Source: Sphingopyxis terrae subsp. terrae NBRC 15098 (GTDB lineage: Bacteria; Pseudomonadota; Alphaproteobacteria; Sphingomonadales; Sphingomonadaceae). From it: a DNA stretch of 64,000 bases. Within the stretch, counting starts at the first letter, position 1. Each line of letters begins with the position of its first letter. The DNA is taken from positions 1-64,000 of the forward strand of contig NZ_BCZQ01000028.1 in NCBI RefSeq assembly GCF_001598815.1, written 5' to 3'. This document shows positions 19,185 through 58,364 of the stretch, in pieces. The notes under the pieces are model-generated. The model searched no databases. It saw only the letters and a program-made list of their open reading frames with translations, and had not been told where the DNA came from. The position numbers and the translations under genes were made by a program.

Positions 19185-23363
<4,179 letters not shown>

Positions 23364-28463: not shown

Positions 28464-28551
28464 GCCACGGCGCGGCGGCCGGTCGCAACCCCGACTCGGT
28501 TCGCCGACGCGCCGAATCTTCGTCCAATCGCCGGGCCGCCACGGCTCGTCG

Positions 28552-28583: not shown

Positions 28584-28607
28584 CGCGCGGTTCGTTTTCC
28601 TTTCACT

Positions 28608-29627: not shown

Positions 29628-29674
29628 GCCAGAGGCTGACCAGCCGCGCGCGCCAAGTTTGTTCGTCGCGCAAG

Positions 29675-29710
29675 GAAAAAGGGCGGCGCCGCAAGGCACC
29701 GCCCTTTTTC
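29675..29710. terminator. Bidirectional intrinsic terminator between the membrane protein gene and rplL
   Basis: GAAAAAGGGCGGCGCC (29675-29690) pairs with GGCACCGCCCTTTTTC (29695-29710), with one mismatch and a 4-nt loop. A and T runs on both sides allow termination on either strand. It ends the rplJL transcript here, so rpoBC is not part of that operon. Confidence 0.9.
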
Positions 29711-29765
29711 TTGTCGCCATGGTTCCGCCGGGAGCCGGCGGCAACTGCTGCGAACGACAGCGAAC

Positions 29766-33087: not shown

Positions 33088-33302
33088 TTCACCCTCTTTT
33101 GGAAATTGACCCTGTCGGGATGGCAGATAGGTGGCCGCGCCCCGGCGCGCAAGCCGCCTGTGCGGCAGATCACTTCCCTTTTCGCCACAAGGGGTTTAGG
33201 GTCCGCCGCAACGGGAATGGGTCGTACCGCAGCAACAGACTGCGCCTTGCCGCCAACCAGATGGCCAGGTGCCCGATGCCGTGACCCTGGGGGAATATCG
33301 TG

Positions 33303-36413: not shown

Positions 36414-36417
36414 CCCG

Positions 36418-38505
36418 ATGGCCGCGAGCATCGCCCCGGACGCCGCGCCCGACGCAATGCCGGCCGCCAACGGCCCGGCGACGATCCCGCTGCGCAAGCG
36501 GGTCCGGCGGCTGGTCATGCAGCTCGGTCCGTCGCGGATGGCGGCGACGATCCTGTTCCTGATCGTCGCGACGCTGTTCGCGCGCTTCAGTTGGGACATG
36601 CCGCTCGTCAACGATGCCGAACGCGCGCTCTACGATGCGCGCGCGACCCTGATGGCACCGCATGTCGCGCAGGATCAGCGCATCGTCATGATCACCTATA
36701 ATGACGAAACGCTGTTCAACACCGGCATCCGCTCGCCGCTCGACCGGACGCTGCTTGCGCGCGCACTCGCCAATATCGACCGCATGGGTGCGAAAGCGAT
36801 CGGCATCGATATCGCTTTCGATTCGCCGCGCCCCGACGACGATCTGCTCAAGACGCAGTTGCGCGCCATGACGACGCCGACATGGCTCGCCTATGCCGAA
36901 CAGGCGAGCAATCCGAACACCATCTTCTACGAACAGCAGAGATTCCTTCAGTCCTTCATCGCCGACGTGCGCACCGACAAGACCCGGCCGACGAGCGTCC
37001 TGTTCCGCACCGACGGCGACGGCGTGATCCGCCGTTGGCCCGACCGGCCGAAGAATCTGCCGCCGCTGATGGCGAATGCGCTGGCGCCGGTCGACGCCGC
37101 CCACGCCGATTATCAGGGCAATATCCGCTTCCTCCTGCCCGCCCGCGCCAATGCCGGACAGGAGGAGCCGGTCTTCGCCAACATCCCGATCGACACATTT
37201 GCGGTGCCGATGGACGATGAAATGCTCGCCGGCCTCGCCGAGCTGGTGCGCGGACGCTATGTCCTGATCGGCGGCGACATCATCGACAACGACCAGTTCA
37301 ACACGCCAATGAGCCGCTTTGTCGATCCGATCACCGGGCTGCACGAAACGATGATCGGGCTCGAAGTTCATGCGCATATGCTGGCGCAGCAACTCGACGG
37401 CGACTGGCCAGCGCCGGTGCCGGGGCCGTCGCTGTGGGTGCTGGCCATCCTCGTCGTCGTCGCCGGGGGACTGACCAGCCTGATCGACATGCGTGCGCGC
37501 TGGGTCGCGCTTGCGTTTCTGGGGCAGCTTGCCTTCTTCGTCGCCTTCCCTTTCTGGCTGCACCGCCACGGCATCGACACGACGACCCTGCCCGCCTTCG
37601 GCTGGGCGGTCGGCTGGCTGCTCGGCTATGCCGCGGTCGGCACCGCGGCGCGCACCATCGGCTCGCGTCAGCGCGCCTTCGCGCAGTCGGCGCTCGGCAA
37701 ATATCTGCCTGTCGATGTCGCCGCGCAGATCATGCGCGATCCCGACCAGCTTTCGCTGCACGGCGAACGGCGCAACATCTATTGCGTCTTTACCGACCTC
37801 GAAGGCTTTACCAAGCTCAGCCATGCGGTGACGCCGGAGACGGTGGCGCGGCTGCTCAACGAATATCTCGACCGCCTGTCGGACATCGTCCTCGAACATG
37901 GCGGGACGATCGACAAGTTCGTCGGCGACGCGGTCGTCGCCTTCTGGGGCGCGCCGATCAGCCGCCCCGACGATGGCGCGCGCGCCGCGGCGGCGGCGGT
38001 CGCCATGTACCAGGCGGGTGAAGCCTTTCGTGTCGATATGGCGGAGGGCGTGCCGCCGATCGGCATGACGCGCGTCGGCCTGCATGTCGGCGACGCGATC
38101 GTCGGCAATTTCGGCGGTGAGGATCGCATCCAATATACCGCGCTCGGCGACAGCATGAACACCGCCTCGCGGCTGGAGGCGGCGAACAAGAGCCTGAAGA
38201 CCGGCGTCCTCATCTCGGCCGAAGCCGCCGAGCGCTCGGGGCGCGACGATCTGGTGCCGATGGGCCGCGTGACGCTGCGCGGGCGGGCGCAGCCGGTCGA
38301 CGTCTTCACCCCGCGCGCCGACCTCAGCCCCGATCAGCGCGCCGCGATCGCCGCGCTGGTTGCCGCGCATGCGGCGGGCGATAAAAAGGCCTATGTGACC
38401 TGCGCCACAGCATTGGCGGCCGAATGGGGTAAGGATTTGTCCATCATGTTCCTGATCGAACGCCTGAACGATACCGACAAGGGAGAAAGCTATGTCCTTT
38501 CCTGA
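36418..38505 (+). CDS. CHASE2-domain class III adenylate cyclase
   Basis: A membrane cyclase of 695 residues, predicted to make cAMP from ATP in the cytoplasm under control of a periplasmic sensor. After an N-terminal helix (about 42-58) comes a CHASE2 extracytoplasmic domain (about 60-330), then three transmembrane helices (about 337-412), and the cyclase domain (about 440-610). The class III catalytic set is complete: metal Asp D460 and D504, adenine-selective K500 and D578, and transition-state N581 and R585 in LGDSMNTASRLE. Only 4 bp separate it from the CHAT gene, and its end overlaps the next gene by 14 bp. Confidence 0.93.
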   Translation: MAASIAPDAAPDAMPAANGPATIPLRKRVRRLVMQLGPSRMAATILFLIVATLFARFSWDMPLVNDAERALYDARATLMAPHVAQDQRIVMITYNDETLFNTGIRSPLDRTLLARALANIDRMGAKAIGIDIAFDSPRPDDDLLKTQLRAMTTPTWLAYAEQASNPNTIFYEQQRFLQSFIADVRTDKTRPTSVLFRTDGDGVIRRWPDRPKNLPPLMANALAPVDAAHADYQGNIRFLLPARANAGQEEPVFANIPIDTFAVPMDDEMLAGLAELVRGRYVLIGGDIIDNDQFNTPMSRFVDPITGLHETMIGLEVHAHMLAQQLDGDWPAPVPGPSLWVLAILVVVAGGLTSLIDMRARWVALAFLGQLAFFVAFPFWLHRHGIDTTTLPAFGWAVGWLLGYAAVGTAARTIGSRQRAFAQSALGKYLPVDVAAQIMRDPDQLSLHGERRNIYCVFTDLEGFTKLSHAVTPETVARLLNEYLDRLSDIVLEHGGTIDKFVGDAVVAFWGAPISRPDDGARAAAAAVAMYQAGEAFRVDMAEGVPPIGMTRVGLHVGDAIVGNFGGEDRIQYTALGDSMNTASRLEAANKSLKTGVLISAEAAERSGRDDLVPMGRVTLRGRAQPVDVFTPRADLSPDQRAAIAALVAAHAAGDKKAYVTCATALAAEWGKDLSIMFLIERLNDTDKGESYVLS

Positions 38506-39256: not shown

Positions 39257-39433
39257 ACGCACGGCTGGCGGGCATTGAAGGGGCCGCGCCGGTCTGATAT
39301 TTGTTGCAGACTATGCGGCCGGATAGAGCCGCAAGTCCTTTCCTTGGGTCGATAAATTGGTCTAGCTGCCCGTGGGGGCGGCAGGATCGCTGGAGCGCGT
39401 TCGAAAACGCCTGCGCTCGGGGTTGGGGGTAAT

Positions 39434-41227: not shown

Positions 41228-41229
41228 TC

Positions 41230-44200
41230 ATGCAATTCGAACCGGAAACGATCGCCATGCGAAAGACCGCAAACACCAGCATTCCCGCCGCGCGCTCGGC
41301 GAAGCGCCACTTGTTGCAGGGCTGCGCAATCGCCGCGGGCCTTGCCGCGCTTGCCTATGGCGGGCCGGCACTGGCGCAGGTGCAGGCGAACCCCGTGTTC
41401 GTCAATGTCGGGGTCGGCTCTTCGGTGTCGAGCAATGCGGGTACCAAGACGACAACGGTCACCGTCACCCAGAATCAGAGCATCATCAACTGGGTGCCCA
41501 CCGACACGGCACCGACCGGCGGGGCAATCGACCTCCTGCCCGCCGACAGCACGTGGAATTTCAACGGCAACGGCAATTATGTCGTGCTCAACCGCTTCGT
41601 GAACGGATCGGGTGGGTCGCTGAGCCGGCAGATCGCGCTGAGCGGCACGATCAACAGTTTCGATTCATCCGTCAGCGGGCCGGGCGGCAGCATCTGGTTC
41701 TACAACGCCGGCGGCATCCTGCTGAACAGCGGCAGCGCGATCAACGTCGGCAGCCTTCTCCTCACCGCCAACGATATCGACACGACCGGCGGTCTTTTCG
41801 GACCGGGGGGCGAAATTCGCTTTCGCGGCGCGTCGGGCAGCACCGCCGCGATCCGCATCGACGCAGGCGCCTCGATCACCGCCGACATGGACGCGGCGGG
41901 CGGCAGCTATGTCGCGCTCGTCGCCCCACGCATCGTCCAGGACGGCATCGTCAACGTCAACGGGTCAGCGGCCTATGTCGCCGCCGAACAGGCCGACATC
42001 CGCATCAATGCGGGCCTGTTCGACATCAACGTCCTGACCGGCGCCGAGGGCGGTCAGGTCATCAGTCACAGCGGCGTTACGACGGGACCGGAGCAGCAGG
42101 TCAGCGGCGGCGCCCAGCGCATCTATATGGTCGCCATTCCCAAGAATGACGCCGTCTCGATGCTCGTGTCGGGCCAGATCGGCTATCAGGACGCCGTTTC
42201 GGCGGTGACCGATTCCGACGGCGCCGTCATCCTGTCGGCGGGCTATAACATCACCGGGGGCGCGATCGACACGGCACCGGCGAACAGCGTCGGGGCCAAT
42301 ATCACGGTCAATGACACGCTGTTCCGCAGCCGCACGATCGCGCGCGCGAGTGGCGATTTCCTGGGCCAGCCCATCGATACGATTCCGCCGGTCGGCGGAG
42401 CCTTCGTCCCGCCGCCTCAGCTTGGCCGGATTCTCGTCGAGGGCAATGCCCTGTTCGAGGGCGACAACAGCGCGACGATCAACGTCGGCGCGGTTCAGGC
42501 GGTCGGTGCAACCGGTCAGTTCATCGTCCGTTCGAAAGCGGCCTCGGCAATCACCGTCGACGGCGGACAACTCGCCGCGGGCACCGACATCCTCGTGACG
42601 GCCTCGCGCGATGCCAATAACGTGAACGGCGTTGGCGAGGGCGGCAATGCCAGTCTGACCATCCTCAACGGCGGCGGCGTTTCGGCGAACAGCGTGACGG
42701 TCAGCGCGCGCGGCCTCGGCGGATTTACCGACGGCGGCGACGGCGGAACCGGGATCGGTGGAACCGCCAGCGTCAGCGTCAGCGGCCCCGGCAGCACATT
42801 GAATGTCGGCTCGTTGATCGTCGATGCCGGTGCACTCGGCGGCGGCGCCTATGTCGGACCAAGCGGTCCTACCGTCACGGACGACAGTGGCGACGGCCAG
42901 GGCGGGACAGCCACGCTCGATATATCCGACGGCGCCACGGTTCAGGCCAGCAACTTCGTTCGCGTGACCGCCGATGGTCAGGGCGAGACCGGCCTTGTCC
43001 GCTCGGGCGACGGCGCAGGCGGGACGGCGCGGATCACCGCTGGCGGGCCTGGCACGACCTTCATATCGAGTTCGACCGACATCAATGCGCAGGGTTTTGG
43101 CGGCGGAAGCCAGTCGAGTTCCAGCGGATCGATCTTCTCCGCCTCCGCCGGAAACGGCGTCGGCGGCACCGCGTCCTTCGGCGCGAACGGTGACGATTCG
43201 ACCCAGATCGCGCCGGGGAACCTCTATCTGTCGGCAAGCGGCCTCGGCGGGGGCGCCAATGCGGCCACCGGGCCGCAAGGCGGCGACGGCACCGGCGGCG
43301 ATGCGTCGGTGTCGGCCGATGGCGCCTTCACCCTCGATCTCAACTCGCTGATCGTTCTCGCCAACGGCGAAAATGGCGGCGCGTCGAGTTCGGGCGGCGA
43401 TACGGGCGTCTCGGGGGACTCGCAGGGCGGCACCGTCAGCCTGTCCGCAAGTAACGGCGCGACGATCGCCAGCACCTTCTATATCCAGCTCGATGCCGGC
43501 GGCATCGTTTCGAGCAGCGAGAATATCGGCAACGGCCAGGGCGGCGGCGTCCGCATCGACGCGACGAGTGGCGGGTCGATCACCACCGACGGCATGCTGC
43601 AGATGACCGCCGACGGCGGCAGCTTCGGCGGCTTCACGGTGGCGACGAGCGGCGGAACGGGCGACGGCGGCAACATCCTCATCAACGCCGACGGCGGATC
43701 GGTCGGTGCGAGCTATTATTATCTGACCGCCAACGGCAGCTCGGCCAATTCGGCGGGCGCGACCGGCGCCGCACAAGGTGGCAATATCGACCTTTTCGCC
43801 CGCGGCGGCGGCAGCATCAGCGCCACCGACCCCAGCCAGTTAAGCAGCTTCAATGCCGATGGACAGAGCGGCTACAGCGTTGGCGGCGCCAACGGTTTCG
43901 GCGGCTTCATCGGGCTTCACGCCGACGGCGGGACGATCGATCTGGCCGGAACGATCCGGCTGTCGATGGGCGGCTATTCGGGCGGCAACACCGACCCCGC
44001 CGGTGGCGCGATCCCGGTGGGCCTCGGCGGCTATGCGCTGATCGAGGTGCTGAACGGCGGCACGATGACGCTCGGCGATTTTGCGGCCGATGCCGAGGGG
44101 CGCGGCTATGGCAATGTCGAATCGCCCGGCGGAGCGGGCACTGGCGCGGCCAATGGCGTCGGCGGCGATGTCGTCATCACGCTGAGCGACGGCACGCTGA

Positions 44201-47200
44201 GCGCAAGCCGCTTCGCCCTGTCGGCCAACGGTTTCGGCGGCCAACCCGGGTCCGGTAGCGGCACCGGCCAGGGCGGCACCATCAGCTATACGCAGACCGG
44301 CGGCGATGCGAGCTTCGGCGACATGTCGATCACCGCCAACGGCTATGGCGGTTCGACGCTGACCGGCACCGGCAACGGTATCGGCGGCACCGCGACCATG
44401 ACCCTGTCGGGCGGCAGCTTCGGCGCATCGACCGCAGCCGCCTATGCCGAAGGTTTCGGCGGCGAAGGCAGTTATGGCTACGACGATTTCTCGAACCCGG
44501 TTCAGCCCGCGGGCAATGGCGGCGATGGACAGGGCGGCACCGCGACGATCGTCATCGACGGACCGATCGCGATCGATACCGGCACGTTGGCGGCCTATGC
44601 GGGTGGCCGCGGCGGCAGTGGCGGCGATTTCAGCAGCATCGGCGTCGCGGTCGGCAACGGCGGCGATGGCGGTGCGGGCACCGGTGGTCAGGCATCGATC
44701 ACCGTCACCGACGGATCGATCGACACCGGCAACTTGATCGCGGACGCTGGCGGAATCGGCGGCAATGGCGGCAACAGTTACGATTCGGGCAGCTTCGGCG
44801 CGCCTGCGGGTATCAGCGTCGGCGGCCGCGGCGGATCCGGCACCGGCGGGACGGCGACGATCAACCTCGCCGCGGCGGTCGGGGTCGCCAACACGCTGAC
44901 AGCGCGCGCGGCGGCGTCGGGCGGGCTTGGCGGCTATGGCTCGGTCGGTAACGACGGCGGCGCGGCGACGGGCGGCCTTGCCCAGTTGATCGTGACCGAT
45001 TTCGACGCCGGACCGCTCGGCGTCGTGCTCGACGCCACGGCGCTCGGCGGCGGCGGCGGAACCGGCTATGACGGCGCGGGCGGAGACGGCGGCGCAGCAA
45101 CCGGCGGCACCGCGCGCGTCGAGGCGACGGGCGCCAACGGCGCGGCGTCGATCACCCAGGCCAACTTCCTGGCCAGCGGCACCGGCGGACGCGGCGGCGA
45201 CGGCAATTCCACCTTCTTCCTGAACCCCGTCGGCCCCGATGGCGGCAAGGGCGGCGATGGCACCGGCGGCACGATCGAAGCCATCGCGAGCGAAAATGCG
45301 ACGCTCACCCTCGCCGGCGCGAATGGCGGGCCGGTCACGCTCGCGAGCGGCGGCACCGGCGGCGATGGCGGCAACGGCGCCTTCAATGGTGAAATACCGG
45401 GCAGCACCGGCGGCGATGGCGGCGATGGCGGGGCGGGCTCGGGCGGCGTCGTCCATCTGCTTGCCAATGGCGGCACGGTCAGTTCGGCGGGTGCGCCGGT
45501 CAACATCAGCGTGGCGGGCACATCGGGCAACGGCGGCATCGGCGGCGACGGCAATGTCGACGCGGACGGCAACGGCGGCAACGGCGCGAACGGCGCGATC
45601 TTCGCCGACCGCGGCGGGCGTATCGTCATCGAGGCGCTGGCAACCCAATCGGGCCCCGGCGCGATGGACCTTGGCGACACGACGCTGGTCGCAAGCGGCG
45701 CGCTCGCTGGCCGGATCGAGATCCGCACCGACGGCACGATCGACTTCGCCAGCCTCGATGCCGAAACCTACGGCATCGCCGATCCGACGAATAACGACAC
45801 CGACGTCGCGACCAGCGGTATCTTCGTCGCGACGACCGATGGCACGATCAATGTCGGTGGCAACGCATCGCTGCGCAGCGACGGCTCGGTCGGCGTCTAT
45901 GGGCAGGCGGCGGGGTTGTTCGACATCACGGGCGATCTGACCATCGAAGCTGGCGACCAGATCGATATCCGCCACGATTTCGGCGAAGGCACGCCGCCGA
46001 CGATCCGCGCCGGTGGCGATTTTACGGCGACCGCGGGATCGGGCATCAGCGGCGCGACCGGTTCTTTCCTGATCGCGGGCGGCGACCTGTCGTTGACGGC
46101 GTCCAACGGCGCGATCGCCGTCGATCGGCTGCAGGGAAGCAATATATTCGTGACCGCGAGCGGTGCGGGATCCGTCGAACATGCCGAAGCGGACAATGAT
46201 TTCATCGCCAGCGCGGCGAGTTTCCGCACTGGGCTCAATTCGATCATCACCGGCGGCAATATCATCGTCACCGCGCCCGGCGCGGTCGATCTCGGCAATT
46301 CCACTGCCGGCGGCTATGTCTCGGTCGACGGGGAGTCGATCCAGTTCGCGAATATCGGCGCGGGCGGCTTCGTCACGCTCAACGCCTCGGGCACTGCGCC
46401 GGGGGCCGAAGGTATCGCCGGCGGATCGATCGACGCGGGCAGCTCGATCAGCCTCTCCGGCAACAGCATCGCACTCACCGGCCCCGTCACTGGCGCCGGG
46501 CCGCTGTTCGCGACCGGCACCGGCGGCGCGGTGAGCATCAGCGATGCCGATGTCGCAGGGTCGATCGTCGTCGCCGCAGTGGGCAATATCAGCGGTAGCT
46601 ATGTCTCGGGCGGCGACATCCTGCTGACCTCGGACGCCGACATCAACGCATCGGCGACGGCCAATGGCGGCTATGCCGATCCGGCAACCGGCGCGATCGC
46701 CGACGGCAATGTTTTCGCCGATGCGGCGGGCAACGCCACGCTGACCGACAGCGGTGCGGCGCGCATGTTCGGCGTCAACGCGGGACAGGCGGCCACGGTC
46801 ACCAATGCGACCGCCGGCGAGGATCTGCTCGTCCTTGCCGGTACGACCGCCAATCTGACCAATGTCACGGCGGGTGACGACATCGACGTCCGCGCCACTG
46901 GCGCGATCATCGCGAACGGGCTCGACGCGACCGGCGCCGGGCTCGACGGCTTCGCGATCAACTATGTGCCAGGGAACGGCTTTACCATCGGTCAGGGCGA
47001 AGGCACGTCGAGCATCGACGGGTCGGACATCAATATCACGTCGTCGGCGGCGTCGATCGACGCGGCGAACCTGTCGGCGGGCGACGATATCCTGCTGTCG
47101 GCGGCAACGACACTCGCCCTCGACGGCGGCACGACACTGGGCCTCGGCATCACCGGCGGCGACAGCAGCATCCGCACCCAGGCGGGCGATACGGTCCTCA

Positions 47201-48729
47201 CCAACCTCGACGCGTTCGACGACATCGTCGCGACTTCGGCGGGTGCGATCAGCAGCGACGCCATCGCTGCGGGCCGCAATCTCGCGCTGACGGCCGTCGA
47301 TGCCATCGATTTCGGCGCCATCACCGTGGGCGGGACGACCACCCTCACGAGCAGCGGCGGCGCGGTCGGCGTCGATGCGCTCAACGCCGCCGGGCCGATC
47401 ACGGCAAGCGGCGACAGCATCGACATTCGCGGCGGCGCGATGCAATTCGCGTCGCTTACCGCCAATGTCGGCAACGCGCTGATCCGCTCGACCGGCAATC
47501 TTTCGATCGCAAGCGGCAGCGTGGCGGGCAGCGCCGATCTCGCGGCGACAGGCGGCAGCATCGCCCTCACCGACCTGTCGGCGGGCGGCGACCTCAACGC
47601 GACCGCAAGCGGCGCCATTCAGGTCGATGGCATCGTCAGCGGTCCGCGCATCGCGCTAGCGTCGAACGACATCGTGATTGCCGGACAAGGCCGCGTCGGG
47701 ACCGCGGGCACCACGCAGAGCCTGACGCTAACGAACAATGGCGCCGCGCCCACCTTCGTCGGCGGCAACGGCACACAGAACGGCTATCACGCCGACGCGA
47801 CCGAGATGACGCGGCTGTTCGCGACGAACATCACCGTCAACGCGCCCAACGGTGCAGCGGCGACCGACCTGATCGTCGACAGCTTCACGCTGGCGGGCAA
47901 TTCCAATCTGGGCGCGGCGGGCTCGCTGACGCTGCAGACGCCCGGGCGGGCACGCGTGATCGGCGCGGTCGAACTGACCGGCCTGACGAGCGCGAACCGG
48001 CTGACGCTCTCGGGCGACGATCGTGTCGAGATCATTCTGGGTCAGGGTAGCATCCGTCTTTCGGCGAATGGCGCTCCCGAAGGCGTGCTGGATCTGCGCG
48101 GAAACGATATCTTCGTCGCCACCGCGTCGGCCATCACCGATGTCGAAGCAGCGACCTCGACCAGCGCGATCGACACGCGCCTCGCACAGAATGACGGCGT
48201 CACCAGCGACGAAGGCGCTTTGTTCGCCGGCGGCATCAACGTCACGACGTCCCGCAGCTTCTATGTCCAGAACAGCGGTGCCGGGACCGACTACGCACAG
48301 CGGCGCGGGCTGACCTTCGCCGCGGGCGGGCTGAACGTCGATGCGCCGTCTTCGGGCGTGCGGATCGTCATCAACGGCGTCCGGCTCGGCGCCAACGGGC
48401 AAGTCACCGGGCTCGACACCATCCCGTTCCTCACCGTCAACGGTTCGGCCCCGACCAGCGGCACGATCGACATGCGGTCGACCTTCAACGGGTGCCTGAT
48501 CATCAGCACCGGCGGCTGCACCTTCATCGATCCGGGCAATCAGTTCCCCGTGCAGGATGTCGTCGAGGACGAGGTTGGCGGCGATGAGGACGGCGACGGC
48601 GGCGGCACCGGCCTGCCCGTGCCGCTCATCACGATCCGCGGCATCGATCCGCTGAGCGGCGCGCCGCTGCTCGACGATCCGGTTACCGGCGCGGGCAACG
48701 ACGATCTGTGGACGCCGACGACGCCCTGA
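41230..48729 (+). CDS. TpsA: large filamentous-haemagglutinin-like exoprotein
   Basis: The 2,499-residue exoprotein has an extended signal peptide (about 50 residues, ending ALAQ) and a TPS secretion domain (about 55-300; NSGSAINVGSLLLT after GGSIWFYNAGGILL). A long beta-helix follows: 21 Gly-rich repeats (about 510-1415), then repeats of the form AGDDI-L-A (about 1600-2180). The C-terminal module has the pair C-X7-C in NGCLIISTGGC and an acidic GGDEDGDGGG linker. These are the only two cysteines I find in the mature chain, recalling the Cys-loop that tethers HMW1-type adhesins to the cell. The likely role is surface adhesion or biofilm. An ATG at 41257 is an alternative start. Confidence 0.92.
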   Translation: MQFEPETIAMRKTANTSIPAARSAKRHLLQGCAIAAGLAALAYGGPALAQVQANPVFVNVGVGSSVSSNAGTKTTTVTVTQNQSIINWVPTDTAPTGGAIDLLPADSTWNFNGNGNYVVLNRFVNGSGGSLSRQIALSGTINSFDSSVSGPGGSIWFYNAGGILLNSGSAINVGSLLLTANDIDTTGGLFGPGGEIRFRGASGSTAAIRIDAGASITADMDAAGGSYVALVAPRIVQDGIVNVNGSAAYVAAEQADIRINAGLFDINVLTGAEGGQVISHSGVTTGPEQQVSGGAQRIYMVAIPKNDAVSMLVSGQIGYQDAVSAVTDSDGAVILSAGYNITGGAIDTAPANSVGANITVNDTLFRSRTIARASGDFLGQPIDTIPPVGGAFVPPPQLGRILVEGNALFEGDNSATINVGAVQAVGATGQFIVRSKAASAITVDGGQLAAGTDILVTASRDANNVNGVGEGGNASLTILNGGGVSANSVTVSARGLGGFTDGGDGGTGIGGTASVSVSGPGSTLNVGSLIVDAGALGGGAYVGPSGPTVTDDSGDGQGGTATLDISDGATVQASNFVRVTADGQGETGLVRSGDGAGGTARITAGGPGTTFISSSTDINAQGFGGGSQSSSSGSIFSASAGNGVGGTASFGANGDDSTQIAPGNLYLSASGLGGGANAATGPQGGDGTGGDASVSADGAFTLDLNSLIVLANGENGGASSSGGDTGVSGDSQGGTVSLSASNGATIASTFYIQLDAGGIVSSSENIGNGQGGGVRIDATSGGSITTDGMLQMTADGGSFGGFTVATSGGTGDGGNILINADGGSVGASYYYLTANGSSANSAGATGAAQGGNIDLFARGGGSISATDPSQLSSFNADGQSGYSVGGANGFGGFIGLHADGGTIDLAGTIRLSMGGYSGGNTDPAGGAIPVGLGGYALIEVLNGGTMTLGDFAADAEGRGYGNVESPGGAGTGAANGVGGDVVITLSDGTLSASRFALSANGFGGQPGSGSGTGQGGTISYTQTGGDASFGDMSITANGYGGSTLTGTGNGIGGTATMTLSGGSFGASTAAAYAEGFGGEGSYGYDDFSNPVQPAGNGGDGQGGTATIVIDGPIAIDTGTLAAYAGGRGGSGGDFSSIGVAVGNGGDGGAGTGGQASITVTDGSIDTGNLIADAGGIGGNGGNSYDSGSFGAPAGISVGGRGGSGTGGTATINLAAAVGVANTLTARAAASGGLGGYGSVGNDGGAATGGLAQLIVTDFDAGPLGVVLDATALGGGGGTGYDGAGGDGGAATGGTARVEATGANGAASITQANFLASGTGGRGGDGNSTFFLNPVGPDGGKGGDGTGGTIEAIASENATLTLAGANGGPVTLASGGTGGDGGNGAFNGEIPGSTGGDGGDGGAGSGGVVHLLANGGTVSSAGAPVNISVAGTSGNGGIGGDGNVDADGNGGNGANGAIFADRGGRIVIEALATQSGPGAMDLGDTTLVASGALAGRIEIRTDGTIDFASLDAETYGIADPTNNDTDVATSGIFVATTDGTINVGGNASLRSDGSVGVYGQAAGLFDITGDLTIEAGDQIDIRHDFGEGTPPTIRAGGDFTATAGSGISGATGSFLIAGGDLSLTASNGAIAVDRLQGSNIFVTASGAGSVEHAEADNDFIASAASFRTGLNSIITGGNIIVTAPGAVDLGNSTAGGYVSVDGESIQFANIGAGGFVTLNASGTAPGAEGIAGGSIDAGSSISLSGNSIALTGPVTGAGPLFATGTGGAVSISDADVAGSIVVAAVGNISGSYVSGGDILLTSDADINASATANGGYADPATGAIADGNVFADAAGNATLTDSGAARMFGVNAGQAATVTNATAGEDLLVLAGTTANLTNVTAGDDIDVRATGAIIANGLDATGAGLDGFAINYVPGNGFTIGQGEGTSSIDGSDINITSSAASIDAANLSAGDDILLSAATTLALDGGTTLGLGITGGDSSIRTQAGDTVLTNLDAFDDIVATSAGAISSDAIAAGRNLALTAVDAIDFGAITVGGTTTLTSSGGAVGVDALNAAGPITASGDSIDIRGGAMQFASLTANVGNALIRSTGNLSIASGSVAGSADLAATGGSIALTDLSAGGDLNATASGAIQVDGIVSGPRIALASNDIVIAGQGRVGTAGTTQSLTLTNNGAAPTFVGGNGTQNGYHADATEMTRLFATNITVNAPNGAAATDLIVDSFTLAGNSNLGAAGSLTLQTPGRARVIGAVELTGLTSANRLTLSGDDRVEIILGQGSIRLSANGAPEGVLDLRGNDIFVATASAITDVEAATSTSAIDTRLAQNDGVTSDEGALFAGGINVTTSRSFYVQNSGAGTDYAQRRGLTFAAGGLNVDAPSSGVRIVINGVRLGANGQVTGLDTIPFLTVNGSAPTSGTIDMRSTFNGCLIISTGGCTFIDPGNQFPVQDVVEDEVGGDEDGDGGGTGLPVPLITIRGIDPLSGAPLLDDPVTGAGNDDLWTPTTP
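42750..45480 (+). repeat. 21 degenerate Gly-rich repeats inside tpsA
   Basis: Each repeat carries a GG-T-A-type strand start (GGTASVSV, GGTATLDI, GGTARITA, and so on to GGVVHLLA), preceded by a Gly/Asp/Asn-rich turn of the type GNGxGG or GGDGGxGxGG. I count 21 copies with a mean spacing of about 45 residues (136 bp). The arrangement predicts beta-helix coils with glycine-rich loops. DNA identity between copies is low, so the array is old or diverged rather than recently expanded. Confidence 0.75.
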
Positions 48730-51442: not shown

Positions 51443-52204
51443 ATGTTTCCCCTTCTTCCTCGCCGTACGTTGCTGATCGGCGCCGCGGCTTCGACCGTTG
51501 CGGCCGCCCTTCCCGCGCGCGCCGCAGCCGCCGCGCCGATCCGCGCGATCGGCTTCGACGGTTTTCCGATATTCGATCCGCGCGGCGTTGCGGCGCGCGT
51601 CAAAGCCATCGTGGGTGACAAGGGAGAGGCCTTTGCGGCCCAATGGTCGGCTAAGCTGTTCGGCTATAGCTGGCTTGAAACCGCCGCCGGCCGTTACCGC
51701 GATTTCCGCACGACCGCCGACGCAGCGCTGCGGCACACCGCCGCAGCGATGCAGGTAACGCTGAGCGACGCCGAACGCGCGGCGCTTGTCGGCGCTTACG
51801 ATGCACTCGACGTCTGGCCCGATGTTCGTCCGGCGCTCGAAACGCTGCGCGGCGCCGGAATTCGACTTGCCTTTCTGTCGAACCTCGGCGCCGACTCGCT
51901 CACCGCCAATATGCGGCGCAACGACATCGCCCATTATTTCGACCCGCCGCTGAGTACCGACCGCGTGAGCGCCTTCAAACCGTCGCCCAAGGCCTATGCG
52001 ATGGCGCTCGACGCGTGGGACATTCCGCGCGAACAGATCGGCTTTGCGGCGTTCGGCGGGTGGGATGCGGTGGGCGCGACCTGGTTCGGCTATCGCACCG
52101 CCTGGGTCAATCGCTTCGGCGTCCCCGCCGAACCGCTGGGCGTCGAACCGGCGATCACGAGCCGGGGGATCGAGGGCGTGCTTGCCCTTGCCGGTCTCGC
52201 CTAA
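51443..52204 (+). CDS. Tat-exported haloacid dehalogenase-like (type II HAD) protein
   Basis: The 253-residue protein has a twin-arginine signal (LPRRTLLIGAAASTVAAALPARA), so it is exported folded to the periplasm. The rest is a HAD hydrolase of the L-2-haloacid dehalogenase type: nucleophile Asp in IGFDGFPIFD, FLSNLG, SAFKPSPKAY with the Lys, and FAAFGGWDAVGA with the acidic residue. The usual GT after the nucleophile is replaced by FP, so the activity may differ from a true dehalogenase. The ATG at 51443 has AAGGA upstream. Its stop overlaps the convergent cpdA-like gene by 4 bp. Confidence 0.85.
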   Translation: MFPLLPRRTLLIGAAASTVAAALPARAAAAAPIRAIGFDGFPIFDPRGVAARVKAIVGDKGEAFAAQWSAKLFGYSWLETAAGRYRDFRTTADAALRHTAAAMQVTLSDAERAALVGAYDALDVWPDVRPALETLRGAGIRLAFLSNLGADSLTANMRRNDIAHYFDPPLSTDRVSAFKPSPKAYAMALDAWDIPREQIGFAAFGGWDAVGATWFGYRTAWVNRFGVPAEPLGVEPAITSRGIEGVLALAGLA

Positions 52205-53049
52205 GCCGGCCTTTCCGCCTTCAACTCGCGCACCAGCGGCTGCAGCCGCGCGTCATATTTGGCGAGCATCGTGTGCGCGCCGGCATGGTCATAAAAGCTG
52301 ACGAGCTCACGGCCGTTCCAGCGATGGAGCGCATAGGCCGGATCTTCGGCCACGATCATCGGGCGGTCGTCGGGATGATTTTCGTCGATCGGGCGCAGGT
52401 CGAGCGACACTTGCGGCGCGGTCGACGAACAGATCGCGACCGTTCGCCCCTCCCACGCCACGGTAACGCTGCGATGCAAATGGCCGCAGATCAGGCCGCG
52501 AACATGGGGATGGCCGCGCACGACATCGGTGAAGCGATGCACCCATGGTTCGTCGGGATGGGTGTTCATCCACTCGATGCCGCTCTCGACCGGCGGATGA
52601 TGCATGACGATATAGGTCGGCTTGGCAGTATCGCGGCCGAGCTCGGCGTCGAGCCATGCGGCGCGCGCGTCGCAAAAGGCGCCGCCGTGGCGCCCTTCCT
52701 CCAGCGTGTCGATCGTGACCAGCCGCACGTCAGGCAGGTCGATCGCATATTGCACGAAGCCATTGCCGTCGTCGAAGCCCGGAAACTGCGCGTGGAAATT
52801 GTCGCGCAAATCATGGTTGCCGACGCTCGGCCAGACCGGAAAGGGGCAGCGCGAAAAGGCGGTGGCGAGCCGGCGATAGCTGTCGGCATCGCCGCGATCG
52901 GTGATATCGCCGGTCGCGAGCAACAGGTCGGGCCGGTTTGGGCCCTCGATGAGCACGTCGAGCACATCGTCGAGCCGCTTGCGGTTATATTCGGCCGGAT
53001 TGTCCGGATCGAACCCGATATGGATATCGGTGATCTGGGCGATCAGCAT
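52201..53049 (-). CDS. cpdA: CpdA-like class III cyclic nucleotide phosphodiesterase
   Basis: A calcineurin-like metallophosphoesterase of 282 residues. All metal motifs are present: D-x-H (QITDIHIG), ATGDITD, SVGNHD, VMHHPP and GHLH. This pattern and length match class III cNMP phosphodiesterases (CpdA/Icc), which hydrolyse cAMP and sometimes cGMP. It starts 38 bp after the FHA-decaheme gene and runs in the same direction, so it is probably the last gene of that operon. The operon's first gene carries two cNMP-binding domains, which makes a shared cAMP link plausible. Confidence 0.87.
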   Translation of the reverse strand: MLIAQITDIHIGFDPDNPAEYNRKRLDDVLDVLIEGPNRPDLLLATGDITDRGDADSYRRLATAFSRCPFPVWPSVGNHDLRDNFHAQFPGFDDGNGFVQYAIDLPDVRLVTIDTLEEGRHGGAFCDARAAWLDAELGRDTAKPTYIVMHHPPVESGIEWMNTHPDEPWVHRFTDVVRGHPHVRGLICGHLHRSVTVAWEGRTVAICSSTAPQVSLDLRPIDENHPDDRPMIVAEDPAYALHRWNGRELVSFYDHAGAHTMLAKYDARLQPLVRELKAERPA

Positions 53050-53087: not shown

Positions 53088-55025
53088 TCACCCGCCCCGC
53101 CTTGCCCCGTGCAAGGAAGGTGTGCGCCACGTCACATCATAAAGGCCCCGCCCCTCGGTGCCTGTGATCAGGCTCACATCATAGATAGCAGCCAGAGGTT
53201 TATGCGTGATTGCCGCGCTGTTAACCTTCCGCTGACGGGCGGGCATCCAGGGTTTGCCGCCGTCCGAATGATATTCGTGGCACATGGCGCACGGCGATTC
53301 GGTCGCGGTCTCGACCTTCACCAGCCGCGCGCCACCCTCGCCCACATGGCAGTCGCGGCACTGGCGCAGCCCCGGCACCAGCAGGTCGCTGGCCGCCTTC
53401 GAACCCGGCGCGGCGGTATGGCAGTCGGCGCATTTCGTAGCCTTGTGCGCATCGTGATCGAACCAGCCCTTTTCCAAATAGCGCGGGGTCTGATTCACCG
53501 CCATCACCCGCCAATTGTTGCCCGATGCGGGCGCGAAAATGGTGTGGCAGTCGTAACAGGCCCCGCCCTTGGAGAAGACCGCGCGCACCGCATCGGCGGC
53601 GCGATTGGGCCGCACCGCGACCTCGCGGAAATAGATATTGTAAAGCTGACCCTCGGCATATTGGCCGGGCCGCCGCCGTTCCATGCCGCCGAGTTGCAGC
53701 GGCCGGCTCGGCGGGGTCGAGCGATAATAGGCGTAGAGGTCCGCCACGACCTGATCGGGCTCGCCATGACGCAGCGTCCGGGTAACGCCGCCGACGGTTT
53801 CGAAGGCCAGGCTGTGGCACATCGCACAGTCGCGTTCCATCACGACAGGTTTGATCCGCACCCCGTCGGCATCGGGGCGGTGGCAATTCTGACATTCGAG
53901 CTTCTTGCCGAAATCATATTGGCCGCGGAAACTTGCCGCCATCCGCGCCACCCCGCCGTTGGCGGCCAGATGGACGTCGTGCGGAAATTTCAGGCCGTCA
54001 TAATCGACCAGCGGCCCCGTGCCGGGCATCGCGCGCGCCGGTTTGGCGCCCGGCGCCGCGCGGACGAGTGGGCGGAATTCGGGATGCGCGGTGCCGAAAT
54101 CGCCGGCATCGGCGACATCGACCTTGAACCCCGCCGCCTTGAGCCGCGAAGCCATGCCATCGTGGCAATCGGCGCAGAATTTTTGCGGTGTCGGCGGCAT
54201 CGGCCCCGCGCCCTCATGTTCGGTATGGCATTCGACGCAGCGCCCCTGCGGCTTGTTGAACGCCTTGGCGAAGCCGGCGAGGACTTTCTCGCCGACACCC
54301 GGCGGGTGCCGTGCGGCGAGCAGCATCGCGGTCGAGGCATCGGCATGGCTCGCGCTCATCGCCTTATGCTCGCCCGTGTGGCATCCGACGCACGCCTTGT
54401 CGGTTACTGCGACGAAGGCATCGACATGGCAGGCCTGGCAATCATTCTTCAGGCTGGCGTGCGCGCTCGACAGCGGCCCCGACAGCCACGCCTTGTCGGC
54501 ATGATAGCCCTGCGGCCGGACATCGACGCTGCGATAGCTGTGCCAGGCCCAGATCGGCCCGATCAGAAAGGCGAGCAGCACGACCAGCGCAAAGGCCCAG
54601 GCGCCCATGCGGCGCCCCGGCATTACCGCGGCGAGCGAAAAGGCCCGGGCCTCGTCGACATCCTTCGACGATTGCGACAGTTCGTCGATCCGCTCGACGA
54701 GCAGGATAATATTCTCCCCCTCGCGCGCGATCGTCAGCCGGTGGCCGCCAAAGCGCAGTTCGGCCCCCGCCGCGCTGTCGATGTCGGCGATGTCGAGCGT
54801 CCGGCCGTTGAGGTCGAACCCCAGCCCCTCGCTCGCCTGCACCCGCACATGGCGGCCGTCGGCGCTGCTGATCGTCGCATGCTGCGGGTTCACCGCCAGA
54901 TCAGCGACGTGGATCGTGTTGCCGCCGTCGCGGCCCAGCGTGATGCTGGCACCGGGCAGCGGCTGATCGCGAACGATCTGCTTGCCCGTCTTGGTCGTCG
55001 ATATGCGGCGCAGGATGAAGCTCAT
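53088..55025 (-). CDS. FHA domain fused to a membrane-anchored decaheme cytochrome c
   Basis: The 645-residue protein has a cytoplasmic FHA domain (about 1-110; GRDGGNTIHVADLAVNPQHATI). One transmembrane helix (about 141-161, preceded by GRR) leads to a periplasmic multiheme domain. I count ten CxxCH motifs (for example CQACH, CVGCH, CVECH, CAMCH, CYDCH). The FHA has GR and H, but the usual S of SxxH is N (NPQH), so phosphothreonine binding may be altered. The domain mix joins a phospho-signal reader to a multiheme electron carrier. It follows the cytochrome b gene by 10 bp. Confidence 0.93.
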   Translation of the reverse strand: MSFILRRISTTKTGKQIVRDQPLPGASITLGRDGGNTIHVADLAVNPQHATISSADGRHVRVQASEGLGFDLNGRTLDIADIDSAAGAELRFGGHRLTIAREGENIILLVERIDELSQSSKDVDEARAFSLAAVMPGRRMGAWAFALVVLLAFLIGPIWAWHSYRSVDVRPQGYHADKAWLSGPLSSAHASLKNDCQACHVDAFVAVTDKACVGCHTGEHKAMSASHADASTAMLLAARHPPGVGEKVLAGFAKAFNKPQGRCVECHTEHEGAGPMPPTPQKFCADCHDGMASRLKAAGFKVDVADAGDFGTAHPEFRPLVRAAPGAKPARAMPGTGPLVDYDGLKFPHDVHLAANGGVARMAASFRGQYDFGKKLECQNCHRPDADGVRIKPVVMERDCAMCHSLAFETVGGVTRTLRHGEPDQVVADLYAYYRSTPPSRPLQLGGMERRRPGQYAEGQLYNIYFREVAVRPNRAADAVRAVFSKGGACYDCHTIFAPASGNNWRVMAVNQTPRYLEKGWFDHDAHKATKCADCHTAAPGSKAASDLLVPGLRQCRDCHVGEGGARLVKVETATESPCAMCHEYHSDGGKPWMPARQRKVNSAAITHKPLAAIYDVSLITGTEGRGLYDVTWRTPSLHGARRGG

Positions 55026-55035
55026 GATCCCCGCC

Positions 55036-55929
55036 TCACCAGTAAAAGAAGACGCTGATGATATGCGCCGACAGCGCCGCGATCAGCGCGAAGGTCAGCG
55101 GCACATGCACATAGAGCCAGATCTCCAGCATCGCCCGGATGCGCAAATGCGCGCGCAGACGGGCCAGTGCGGCTTCCTTTTGCGAAAGCAGTCCGATGAC
55201 CTTCTGCCGCGCGTCGGCGTTGCCCCCGTGCGAGAGCGACAACGCGCGCAGCGCCGCCGCCGTCGCGTCCTTCGGATAGCGCCCGGAAAGCCGTGCCCTG
55301 ATACCTCCCGCAAAGGGATCTTCGTCGAGCGAGGCGAGCACCGGTGCGGTATCCTCCGGCGACAGCGGCTGCGCGGCGGCGTGCAGTTGGCGGTCGAAGG
55401 CGCGGATCGCCTCCAGCATCTGCATCTGCGTCATCTCGTCGCGATTGTTCGACAGCGCCGCGGGCAGCGTCGCATAGACGATGACGCCATAAAGCCCCGA
55501 CAATATGACGAGCATCATCAGCGCCCAGGCGAGCGTATGGACGTTCCAGCCGAGCTGGAAACCCGTGTGCCAGGTGCCGATGACGATCAGGCTCAGCCCC
55601 AGATAGACATGCGCCGACGTCCACGCCTTCAGCGACCAGGCATCGCGCGTCATCTTGCGCTTGCGATAGCCGAGCGCGGTGAGCCAGAGGATCAGCAACG
55701 CGCCGATGGTGCCGAGCGTATAGCCGTACCAGCTTCCGCCATTGGGCCGCGGCGTCACATCGATCAGCGCATAGGAGGTGATGACGAGCAGGCAGAGGCC
55801 GCCCGAAATCTTTGCCCAGCGGAAATTGGCGTAGCGCAGAAAGCCCTCATGCTTGCGCTCGCGGACGCGTTCGGTCTGGGTGGCCCGGTTGCGGCGGCCC
55901 AAAAGCCTTCTGGGAAACAGACTCGCCAT
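55036..55929 (-). CDS. Membrane cytochrome b-like subunit
   Basis: The 297-residue protein has five transmembrane helices, four in the N-terminal half and one at the end. Conserved histidines lie in TSAHVYLGL, GTWHTGFQ, NVHTLAW, YVHVPLTF and LSAHIISV, as expected for b-haem ligands in cytochrome b561/ferric reductase-like proteins. An amphipathic cytoplasmic region (about 165-265) separates helices 4 and 5. Its ATG overlaps the stop of the preceding gene. It probably carries electrons from the cytoplasmic FAD/Fe-S protein to the periplasmic decaheme domain. A longer upstream in-frame start is not family-like. Confidence 0.85.
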   Translation of the reverse strand: MASLFPRRLLGRRNRATQTERVRERKHEGFLRYANFRWAKISGGLCLLVITSYALIDVTPRPNGGSWYGYTLGTIGALLILWLTALGYRKRKMTRDAWSLKAWTSAHVYLGLSLIVIGTWHTGFQLGWNVHTLAWALMMLVILSGLYGVIVYATLPAALSNNRDEMTQMQMLEAIRAFDRQLHAAAQPLSPEDTAPVLASLDEDPFAGGIRARLSGRYPKDATAAALRALSLSHGGNADARQKVIGLLSQKEAALARLRAHLRIRAMLEIWLYVHVPLTFALIAALSAHIISVFFYW

Positions 55930-58364
55930 CAGCCCGCATCCTCCTCGAGCCGCGCGATCGACAGAAACTCCTCGGGCGACACGCGGATCGCGGCCCCGGT
56001 CGGACAGGCGCGAACGCAGGCCGGCCCGCCGGCAATGCCCTTGCACATGTCGCACTTCACCGCGATTTTCTTGGGCTTTTCGTCGCCGAGCTTTTTCTTG
56101 GTCCATTTGGGCGACGGTTCGCCCGGCCCCGGCCCCTTGCCGAAGAGCAGCCAGCTAAGCAGCCCCGGCTTCGGCGGCGGCGCGGCCTCCATGCGGATCA
56201 CGCCATAGGGGCAGTTGCGCATGCAGTTGCCGCAGCCGATGCAACCCGGCTCCATGAACACCTCGCCGTCGGGGCCGCGGTGGATCACGTTCGGCGGGCA
56301 GTCGGCCATGCAATGCGGATGTTCGCAGTGGCGGCAGCTTGTCGGCACATGCAGATGCGCGAAGGTCTTGCCCGCCTCGCGGTCGAGCCGCGACAGTCCC
56401 TCGTGGCTGTCGGCGCAGGCCTTTTCGCAATTGTCGCAGCCGACGCACAGATTTTCGTCGATCAGCAGCGCGTCGGTCGCCTCGCCCAGCCCTTCCTTCA
56501 TGATGAAGCTGGCGGTGTCCGAATAAAGGTCGACCGCGCTCGAATAGCTTGCCTTGCGCGATTCGATGAAGGCGTTCATCGCTGCGCGTTCGGCGACCGC
56601 CGCCTCGGTCGCGGCGCGCACCTGCGGCCGCGCGGCGAGCATCTTGCGAAAGCTTTCGCCGGTCAGCTTGATGACCTCGCTGCCGACCGCGGCCTTGACC
56701 GTCGCATTGCGCGGCTCGCCGCTGAGCACGCCCATCTCGCCGAAATAGCTGCCGGCGGGCAGATAGCGTAGGAAGATCGGCTTGCCGCCGATATCCTTTT
56801 CGACGACCATCGAGCCTGACCGGATGACATAGACATCGTCGCCCTGCTCGCCTTCGGTCACGACCACCTTGCCCGCCGGCACGCGCACGACCTCGGCCTG
56901 GTCGACGACCTCCTGCAGATCATCGACGGTCAGCCCGCCCTTGAAGATTTGCAGCAACTGGCGTTCGAGCGAGATGCGGTTGATGACGCGTTTCGCCCCC
57001 GGCACTGCGGCCATCAGCTTGAGCGCGGCGGTGCGCGATACCTCGACGAAGATGCTGTCCTCGCCGGCGCGGATCGTCGCACCGCGCTTGCGGCCCGATA
57101 TCAGCCCGACCTCGCCGAAGATCGACCCCTGTTCGATGGGCACCGTGACGCCGGGCGCCACTTCCACCTCGGCGTGACCGTCGGCGATCGCGAACAGCGA
57201 CGATCCCGGCTCGCCCTTTTCGAACACCACCTCGCCGCGGCGATAGAAGGCAACCTTCGAATCGAGCATGAATTCGCGCATCTGCAGCGGCGAGACATCG
57301 GCGAAGATGCGGACCCGCGTGCGCAGATAGTCGAGCCATTCGCTGACCGATTTCTTCTGCGGCAAATCGGCAAAGATCGCCGCCAGATCCTTTTCGTCGG
57401 CCGGGGTCAGCGCGCTGTTGCCGTTGATGAACTCGACGACGTCATAGCCCTGGTTCATGCAATGCTTGATCAGCGGATAGCCCGCGAGCGCACCGATCAC
57501 GAAAATGCCCGGAACGGTCGATTCAAAGGTCGGGGACAATTTGGGAAAGGCTTCGCGGTCCGGGCCGGTGAATTCGATCCCCATCGATTCGACGAAGCCG
57601 CGCGGCGCGACCGACCCCAGCCGCGCGACGATCACGTCGCATTCGATCCGCTCGTCGCCGTTCGGCGTTTCCAGCGTCAGCCAGCCGGGCTCGACCAGCT
57701 TGGGCTGCGTTTCGGTGCGGATCGACAGAAAGCCGTTCTCGCCCGCCTCCATCATGTCGGAGACATTCTTCGCCTTGGCGCGCGCGAAATCCTTCGACCG
57801 GTTCAGAATGGTGACGGTGTTTTCCAGCGCTTCCTCGGCAACGCCGAGCGCATTCTCGATCCCCGCGTCGCCCGATCCGACCACGGTGATATGCTGGTTC
57901 TTGAAATCCTCGGGATCGTCGACCTGATAGATGATGTGCGGCAGATCATATCCGTCGCAGCGCAGGCGATTGGGATTGCCCTGCGTGCCGATGGCGAGGA
58001 CGATATTTTCCGCCGCGATCACCGCGCCCTTGGCGGTCTTGATCGAAAAGGCACCCTTCTGCCCCGATACCTCGACGACCTCCGCCTGATAGGCGACATT
58101 GACGCCGTTGTTCGCGGCATCCTGATCCCAATTGCCCAGGATCGTTTCGCGCGCGCCCTCGGCGAAGCGGCAGTCGGACCGCAAATCGAGCCGTTCGGGC
58201 GTCGCAAGGACGCGCTTGCCCTTCTGATATTTGAAGATCGTATCCGAAAGATGGTCGGTCTTTTCCAGCAGCACATGCGCCAGCCCGAGCTGCGCCGCGC
58301 GCGCCGCGGCGCTCAGGCCGGCGGGCCCCGATCCGATGATCGCGACCTTGACCGCGTCGCTCAT
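55929..58364 (-). CDS. FAD/NAD(P) oxidoreductase fused to two cNMP-binding domains and four [4Fe-4S] sites
   Basis: The 811-residue cytoplasmic protein combines four parts. A thioredoxin-reductase/YpdA-like FAD and NAD(P) module (1-345) has AIIGSGPAGLSAA and VVGSGDAGIENAL. Two cyclic-nucleotide-binding domains (about 350-455 and 485-590) both have the phosphate-cassette Glu and Arg (E418/R427 and E543/R552). A ferredoxin module (about 635-790) has 16 cysteines in four clusters, of DmsB/NrfC layout. It can take electrons from NAD(P)H to Fe-S centres under control of cAMP or cGMP (inference). The start at 58364 is MSDAVKVAIIG. Confidence 0.93.
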   Translation of the reverse strand: MSDAVKVAIIGSGPAGLSAAARAAQLGLAHVLLEKTDHLSDTIFKYQKGKRVLATPERLDLRSDCRFAEGARETILGNWDQDAANNGVNVAYQAEVVEVSGQKGAFSIKTAKGAVIAAENIVLAIGTQGNPNRLRCDGYDLPHIIYQVDDPEDFKNQHITVVGSGDAGIENALGVAEEALENTVTILNRSKDFARAKAKNVSDMMEAGENGFLSIRTETQPKLVEPGWLTLETPNGDERIECDVIVARLGSVAPRGFVESMGIEFTGPDREAFPKLSPTFESTVPGIFVIGALAGYPLIKHCMNQGYDVVEFINGNSALTPADEKDLAAIFADLPQKKSVSEWLDYLRTRVRIFADVSPLQMREFMLDSKVAFYRRGEVVFEKGEPGSSLFAIADGHAEVEVAPGVTVPIEQGSIFGEVGLISGRKRGATIRAGEDSIFVEVSRTAALKLMAAVPGAKRVINRISLERQLLQIFKGGLTVDDLQEVVDQAEVVRVPAGKVVVTEGEQGDDVYVIRSGSMVVEKDIGGKPIFLRYLPAGSYFGEMGVLSGEPRNATVKAAVGSEVIKLTGESFRKMLAARPQVRAATEAAVAERAAMNAFIESRKASYSSAVDLYSDTASFIMKEGLGEATDALLIDENLCVGCDNCEKACADSHEGLSRLDREAGKTFAHLHVPTSCRHCEHPHCMADCPPNVIHRGPDGEVFMEPGCIGCGNCMRNCPYGVIRMEAAPPPKPGLLSWLLFGKGPGPGEPSPKWTKKKLGDEKPKKIAVKCDMCKGIAGGPACVRACPTGAAIRVSPEEFLSIARLEEDAG

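Follow-up and report, generated by a model that had tools for sequence, protein, structure and literature searches.

Background

Parts of the locus described here resemble several known systems. Among the closest on the redox side is CbcL of Geobacter, which likewise joins in function an inner-membrane cytochrome b with a multiheme cytochrome c, from where a path leads to the outer-membrane conduits, and which is placed at the point where electrons leave the quinone pool (PMC6148476). The conduits themselves, namely Geobacter extHIJKLMNOPQS and extABCD, Shewanella MtrCAB and the porin-cytochrome conduits, combine a periplasmic multiheme cytochrome c, an outer-membrane barrel and an outer multiheme cytochrome c (sections of PMC5877670, PMC6148476 and PMC13322032). 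On the signaling side, a CHASE2 cyclase gene clusters with phosphodiesterase, FecR and TPR genes in Campylobacterota (PMC9239204). With this cluster and the Sinorhizobium cyaD1/spdA/clr system (PMC4222275 and PMC5498481) the loci described here share a CHASE2 cyclase, a phosphodiesterase and FecR/TPR neighbours, and with Sinorhizobium also a receiver of CNB type. Further, a table of iron-oxidiser genes places under 'Other' the Gallionellaceae cluster 403, a forkhead-associated protein with 10 heme motifs found in 27 of 87 iron-oxidiser genomes (part of PMC10734462).

Here we describe a locus of Sphingopyxis terrae that brings such parts together. Bacterial cyclic-nucleotide-binding (CNB) domains that directly control an effector other than a DNA-binding one are exemplified by the mycobacterial Pat acetyltransferase and the MlotiK1/SthK channels; whereas the domain there acts on an acetyltransferase or an ion channel, here the CNBs are fused to an electron carrier. 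The known control of outward electron export operates, to our knowledge, through gene expression or through which conduit is used. We propose, with a probability only slightly above one half (about 0.5), that three linked genes, A, B and C, encode an inner-membrane, NAD(P)H-fed complex for electron export towards the cell surface under allosteric control by cAMP.

The A-B-C gene set

Open reading frames and a motif scan of the window (the whole stretch of 64,000 nucleotides analysed) place A, B and C as three minus-strand genes spanning 58364-53088, with the start codon of B and the stop codon of A sharing 1 nt and a gap of 10 nt between B and C; this spacing supports one operon-like set. A fourth gene, D, follows C after 38 nt. 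Thus, the single operon that the first-pass annotation of this DNA had drawn at 53088..58364 stands as to its three linked genes and falls one gene short in its extent.

Gene A (55929..58364, minus strand) encodes a protein of 811 aa that is predicted to combine an FAD/NAD(P) oxidoreductase, two CNB domains and a 16-Cys ferredoxin with four [4Fe-4S] clusters, as had been read from the sequence at first pass; profile matches recover all of these parts (Pyr_redox_2/3, two cNMP_binding stretches and Fer4). The NCBIfam model nearest to the FAD/NAD(P) domain is YpdA, which it matches far below the cut-off (123 bits vs 340), and its FAD-motif Gly is invariant in the 92 homologues, all of them distinct rows, on which the conservation counts for A are based. 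The ferredoxin domain (55965..56468, minus strand; residues about 633-800) carries its 16 Cys in four groups between residues 640 and 787, all kept in 92/92 homologues, and its PDB profile matches are of the formate hydrogenlyase subunit 2/HycB type. The CNB fold is assigned by PF00027, which covers two stretches with 114 bits against a cut-off of 27.5, and the best PDB matches of the pair include, after one multi-CNB Toxoplasma protein, PKA RI-alpha; mycobacterial Pat and MlotiK1/SthK also figure among the profile and PDB matches of A.

The first phosphate-binding cassette, which aligns to that of PKA RI-alpha, lies at 57072..57122 on the minus strand (A residues 415-431, IFGEVGLISGRKRGATI) and the second at 56697..56747 on the same strand (residues 540-556, YFGEMGVLSGEPRNATV). 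That both are intact had been proposed from the window alone and is borne out by the family: E418 and R427 of the first are each found in 92/92 homologues, and E543 and R552 of the second in 91/92 and 92/92, while the loop 548-551 between the latter two drifts. We take the cassette Glu to be the ribose contact and the Arg the phosphate contact of such sites. Both CNBs are spanned by all 40 distinct A matches in the phylum and class genome samples. Judged from these alignments, the conservation of residues in A is beyond chance.

Gene B (55036..55929, minus strand), which follows A, encodes a membrane protein of 297 aa that appears to be the multi-His cytochrome b for which it had been taken. 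The Ni_hydr_CYTB profile matches the window protein weakly (20 bits, under the curated cut-off of 30.1); in 33 of 40 family members its E value is 0.01 or lower. Five His (H107, H121, H131, H275 and H289) are all present in 75/75 homologues, and two pairs among them, 107/121 and 275/289, are each 14 residues apart, in modelled helices 100-122 and 238-296. Diheme cytochromes b of the Ni_hydr_CYTB/FdnI type hold their hemes by two helix His pairs at this same spacing, and the pairs of B would suit a stack of two b-hemes spanning the membrane. The AlphaFold2 model of B has a pLDDT of 78, and its comparison with the PDB gave no confident fold match. In two stretches (L127 and L128, from two genomes of one distant genus) A and B form a single reading frame, which is direct evidence for their partnership.

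Gene C (53088..55025, minus strand; 645 aa) combines an FHA fold (residues 1-112), a single transmembrane helix (139-164 in the model, with a hydropathy peak at 141-159) and, behind it, a decaheme cytochrome c region with ten CxxCH motifs. Among 81 homologues ten such motifs are found in 78, nine in two and five in one that runs into a contig end; nine further His are invariant, gaps in one row aside. An FHA-anchored decaheme cytochrome c had been named at first pass, and family-level evidence agrees with it. In the window protein alone the FHA domain is not significant (YscD_cpl, 17 bits against a cut-off of 33); PF00498 is found in 37 of 44 family members, the profile of C matches the OdhI/GarA FHA domains in the PDB, and the AlphaFold2 model of residues 1-112 (pLDDT about 93) has FHA domains as its top Foldseek matches. 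Together, profiles and model support an FHA fold at the N-terminus. The description of Gallionellaceae cluster 403 is similar in its FHA domain and ten heme motifs, and it may, as compared by that description only, be the same kind of protein (part of PMC10734462).

In contrast to the fold, the first-pass suggestion that this domain recognises phosphoproteins is not upheld. The phosphothreonine-contact signature of FHA domains comprises Gly-Arg and Ser-x-x-His. G31-R32 is present in 81/81 homologues and H49 in 71/81, but Ser at position 46 occurs in only 6/81 (the full Ser-x-x-His in 4/81), and the window protein has Asn there; phosphopeptide recognition by C is, on these residues, doubtful.

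A linked phosphodiesterase homologue

Gene D (52201..53049, minus strand; 282 aa) is a predicted class III metallophosphoesterase resembling SpdA, CpdA and Rv0805. It scores 136 bits against the SpdA model NF050112 and 78 bits against the CpdA model PRK11148 (cut-off 225); as the SpdA score lies under the NCBIfam cut-off of 400, assignment of D as an equivalog of that 2',3'-cNMP phosphodiesterase was rejected. Its PDB matches comprise the Rv0805/Icc protein and other phosphohydrolases, and the metallophosphoesterase motifs DxH, GD, GNHD, HH and GHxH are kept in 49/49 aligned homologues. D is present in 69 of the 76 loci with C, or 69/71 where the room is clear; its seven misses comprise four contig ends, one locus with about 0.4 kb left (L077) and two clear absences with room (L046 and L075). 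In loci from outside the family (L125-L149 and L156-L159) no D was found adjoining C, and in L132 three genes lie between the two. SpdA, encoded at the cyaD1 locus of Sinorhizobium, is reported to cut 2',3'-cAMP; its activity towards 3',5'-cAMP was below detection, and it may serve to insulate cAMP signaling (PMC4222275). By analogy with SpdA, its nearest named relative, which spares the one isomer and cuts the other, D may end the nucleotide signal or insulate the CNB sites.

Spread and linkage

The neighbourhood of A was compared in the best 80 of at least 590 related loci, mostly from Sphingomonadales. The first-pass annotation had called for a search for the fused architecture with its gene neighbours, and this search returned the order A-B-C in 76/80 loci; the contigs of the other four end too early, making 76/76 with room. 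The ATE and PK flanks are kept in Sphingopyxis and rare elsewhere. In genome samples of the phylum (398) and the class (289), with A called at E 1e-60 or better, 15 and 26 genomes respectively are A-positive (38 distinct). These samples gave 39 new loci, taken with 1.5-kb flanks, of which 34 have B next to A and 33 have C; the exceptions to A-B-C are L100 (a second copy, in G001), L111, L119, L120 and L124 (a contig fragment), and in L097 A is fused to B, with C visible in the longer stretch L127. Lineages in which the three genes are unlinked, named at first pass as what would speak against a common chain, are seen only as a few divergent loci (L100/L130, the second copy, L111/L139, L119/L146 and L120/L147). 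Two of these (L146 and L147, from genomes G642 and G554) have A with the outer-module genes described below in the order G-F-H-A-E; neither B nor C was found nearby, and A may there pair with another membrane partner. Overall, the gene content and order of the chain are well supported.

A second module of multiheme and putative outer-membrane components

The A-B-C set had been read as an electron path ending in the periplasm; its order of carriers fits this as far as it goes, but the endpoint is probably incomplete, since a further module, E-G-F-H, is linked to it. This module, like D and the CHASE2 cyclase gene of the window, was absent from the first-pass annotation. It comprises a tetraheme cytochrome c (E, C554-like), an HbpS-like lipoprotein (G, with three HbpS-like stretches), a possible outer-membrane barrel (F) and a protein with ten CxxCH motifs plus LVIVD repeats (H). 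In 26 of 35 longer loci, one or more of the four genes share a fetched stretch with A; of 59 named-contig loci, flanked by up to 6 kb, 29 have module genes, namely H (28) or E-G (L083). H is found in 11/398 genomes of the phylum sample and 19/289 of the class sample, 27 distinct, and every one of them is A-positive (Fisher 1.6e-18 and 2.6e-24, respectively, with kinship ignored). A occurs without H in four genomes of the phylum sample and seven of the class sample. In G154, one of these, the fetched stretch runs out at G and F, close to a contig end (L125); two others have different multiheme neighbours (L142 and L143). In place of H, the latter loci show tetraheme C554-like genes and a pentaheme protein about 600-640 aa long, perhaps an alternative outer module.

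In the Sphingopyxis terrae genome E-G-F-H occupies about 20295-30021 of a different contig (G000:C17) and adjoins a glutamate dehydrogenase gene. Since both modules sit together beside a glutamate dehydrogenase gene in L153 and L083, it is probable that the window operon and E-G-F-H parted within Sphingopyxis. In G000:C17, as in L163:4909-16022, glutamate dehydrogenase is followed by E, G, F and H; immediately upstream of that run is a gene that resembles, by eye, the CcmH-TPR gene adjoining A in other sphingomonads.

F is presumed to be an outer-membrane barrel from its C-terminal residues. An aromatic C-terminus is found in 21/21 F rows (two of them the same gene) vs 34/498 other genes, and a beta-signal in 19/21 vs 12/498; a strand-moment test gave no separation from shuffles, and searches against family and PDB profiles returned no match save Alginate_exp in 1/14 members. 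F adjoins the multiheme H in L163, L188, L187, L189 and others, which, if F is a barrel, is the pairing expected of a porin-cytochrome conduit (MtrCAB/PCC). H itself is 63-75% identical between the Sphingopyxis terrae genome and five long homologues. Its similarity to ExtM of the Geobacter Ext selenite/tellurite system is weak, with a best stretch of 51 residues only, around the heme motifs, and at 70 bits vs a cut-off of 800 assignment as an ExtM equivalog was rejected.

A CHASE2 cyclase and its proximity to the modules

The window also encodes, at 36418..38505 on the plus strand and 17 kb from A, a CHASE2 protein with a class III nucleotide cyclase domain (hereafter CYC), the sole PF00211 match of the genome at E 0.001 (61 bits, cut-off 21.9). 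Its catalytic motifs are FTDLEGFT, IDKFVGD, YTALGD and MNTASR, in which we take the functional residues to be the two Asp, Lys/Thr for adenine and the Asn-Arg of the adenylyl type. By profile and catalytic residues CYC classes as a class III adenylyl cyclase, and we propose it as the source of the CNB ligand.

In some loci the connection is closer. A CYC homologue is first in the run CYC-x254-E-G-F-H of L188 (gaps -29 to +10 nt), and in L187 another, whose catalytic Asn is missing, lies 3 nt after D, facing H. In a 38% GC genome of another class (L193/L194) a co-directional run begins A-B-C-G-F-H-E and ends with the CYC homologue; it also has TPR-like, FecR and metallo-beta-lactamase-type genes. 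The last of these (L193:4474-5310) lies between the cyclase and the FecR/TPR-like genes and is possibly a phosphodiesterase standing in for D.

PF00211 is matched at E 1e-12 or better in 38/38 A-positive genomes vs 43/69 A-negative ones, the latter being a class sample of 76 less seven A-positive (50/76 becoming 43/69); this presence is weak evidence, because many of the A-negative genomes are small. Of the 38 A-positive genomes, 10 have a cyclase homologue no more than 25 kb from A or H, vs 5.6 expected (p 0.036), which is not significant with one genome per family (5/21 vs 3.4 expected, p 0.24). The signal comes from genomes with at most three cyclase homologues, where the count is 9/18 vs 1.1 expected, or 4/7 vs 0.35 expected with one per family (p 1.5e-4). 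Both the distance of 25 kb and the division by number of homologues were chosen after the data were seen. With more than three homologues it is 1/20, the one case being beside a second A copy that has no B or C. Thus, while some lineages show strong linkage of cyclase and module, others show none.

Proposed mechanism and alternatives

The proposal builds on the gene content and order, the cofactor and cassette residues, the A-B fusion, the linkage of A-B-C to E-G-F-H and, in some lineages, that to the cyclase. On the simplest reading of these parts, the flavin of A would oxidise NAD(P)H and pass electrons through the four [4Fe-4S] clusters to B, whose two b-hemes would move them across the membrane to the ten periplasmic hemes of C. 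Owing to the linkage with E-G-F-H, electrons probably go beyond the periplasm: from C they would reach the tetraheme carrier E, the lipoprotein G, the presumed barrel F and the secreted decaheme-LVIVD protein H, the latter two presumably placed at the outer membrane, and lastly an extracellular or outer-surface acceptor. The CNB pair of A, of the PKA-regulatory-subunit type, has the flavin domain on one side and the ferredoxin domain on the other, and a nucleotide bound there would alter transfer between these allosterically, through a rearrangement like that of PKA regulatory subunits which could open or close the step; the ligand would most likely be 3',5'-cAMP from the CHASE2 cyclase, with D either clearing it or shielding the CNB sites from 2',3'-cyclic isomers. 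Such control is made more plausible by the linkage of D and by the cyclase gene in some lineages. Points against the proposal are the closeness of D to SpdA, with no detected activity towards 3',5'-cAMP, the lack of a D adjoining C in the loci from outside the family, the two loci with A and outer-module genes where neither B nor C was found, the missing PDB fold match of B and the lack of profile matches for all but one member of F. We hold more tentatively, at somewhat less than even odds, the complete form of the scheme, in which a second messenger switches a conduit reaching from NAD(P)H to the cell surface: a CHASE2 cyclase whose gene is part of the conduit locus or close to it would make cAMP, the CNBs would read it and the phosphodiesterase would clear or insulate it.

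The chief alternative departs from this in the last step only: E-G-F-H might be a dedicated surface enzyme, such as an oxyanion, iron or heme reductase, with A-B-C as its private, cAMP-controlled donor. We regard this as plausible though not favoured; the strong full-length conservation of H, its weak similarity to ExtM and the HbpS-like stretches of G point this way, but no catalytic site is recognised and the ExtM similarity centres on the short stretch at the heme motifs. It is fairly unlikely that electron export stands while the CNBs are structural or bind another ligand, with control lying in transcription or substrate supply. CNB folds can, in general, persist without gating, and both the near-absence of nearby cyclases in cyclase-rich genomes and the loss of significance at one genome per family across all copy numbers fit such a reading; against it stand the cassette Glu and Arg kept at both sites while the adjoining loop drifts, the retention of both CNBs in every sampled match, the near-constant presence of D where room is clear, and the cyclase placed in the E-G-F-H run or beside D.

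Two further possibilities concern the route and direction of electrons. A-B might be a cAMP-regulated NAD(P)H:quinone oxidoreductase, or be fed by quinol, with C, E and H drawing on the quinone pool in the manner of Geobacter CbcL. The likeness of B to Ni_hydr_CYTB/FdnI-type cytochromes, many of which face quinone, and its third invariant His, H131, would suit this, but the A-B fusion and the A-B-C order favour direct relay; we consider it unlikely, although the fusion and the gene order are compatible with a quinone site in B. Inward flow, with H and F accepting electrons from an outside donor and A making NAD(P)H, appears very improbable: multiheme conduits can in general run in either direction, as noted for MtrAB/MtoAB in PMC10734462, the same source tabulating the decaheme forkhead-associated protein of iron oxidisers, but NAD(P)+ reduction is uphill for most outside donors, and no energy-driven step was recognised in the fetched neighbourhoods, where a minority of genes are annotated.

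Relation to known systems

If the export reading is right, the conduit itself is of a known kind, and what looks new is a CNB receiver fused to a redox enzyme and the combination of conduit, cyclase and phosphodiesterase parts. Unlike in CbcL, the b and c parts are separate genes here, preceded by an NAD(P)H flavo-ferredoxin protein with CNBs. Unlike the Ext and MtrCAB conduits, the present one has an F that matches no known conduit porin and an H with LVIVD repeats, as well as an HbpS-like lipoprotein, a dedicated cytoplasmic donor and linked phosphodiesterase and cyclase genes. Whereas in Sinorhizobium the receiver of CNB type is the transcription factor Clr (sections of PMC4222275 and PMC5498481), the receiver proposed here is a redox enzyme fused to CNBs. 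Within open-licence PubMed Central no paper was found that joins cyclic-nucleotide-binding with multiheme, FHA/cytochrome or extracellular-electron terms.

Should the CNBs gate the flow, a diffusible messenger could set redox output quickly, and outward electron transfer in presumed plain aerobes would be under post-translational second-messenger control. The proposal predicts a so far unnoticed outward electron chain in many Sphingomonadales, and the orphan decaheme FHA cytochrome of iron oxidisers may gain partners from it.

Genes around the cyclase in the window

Positions 33300-48729 of the window hold one plus-strand run made up of a CHAT gene, the CHASE2 cyclase gene, genes for a 254-aa protein and for a ShlB-type two-partner secretion pore, and an adhesin-like reading frame of 2570 aa. 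Runs homologous to it are present in L197 and in L195/L196, and a ShlB-type pore also lies ahead of E-G-F-H in L189.
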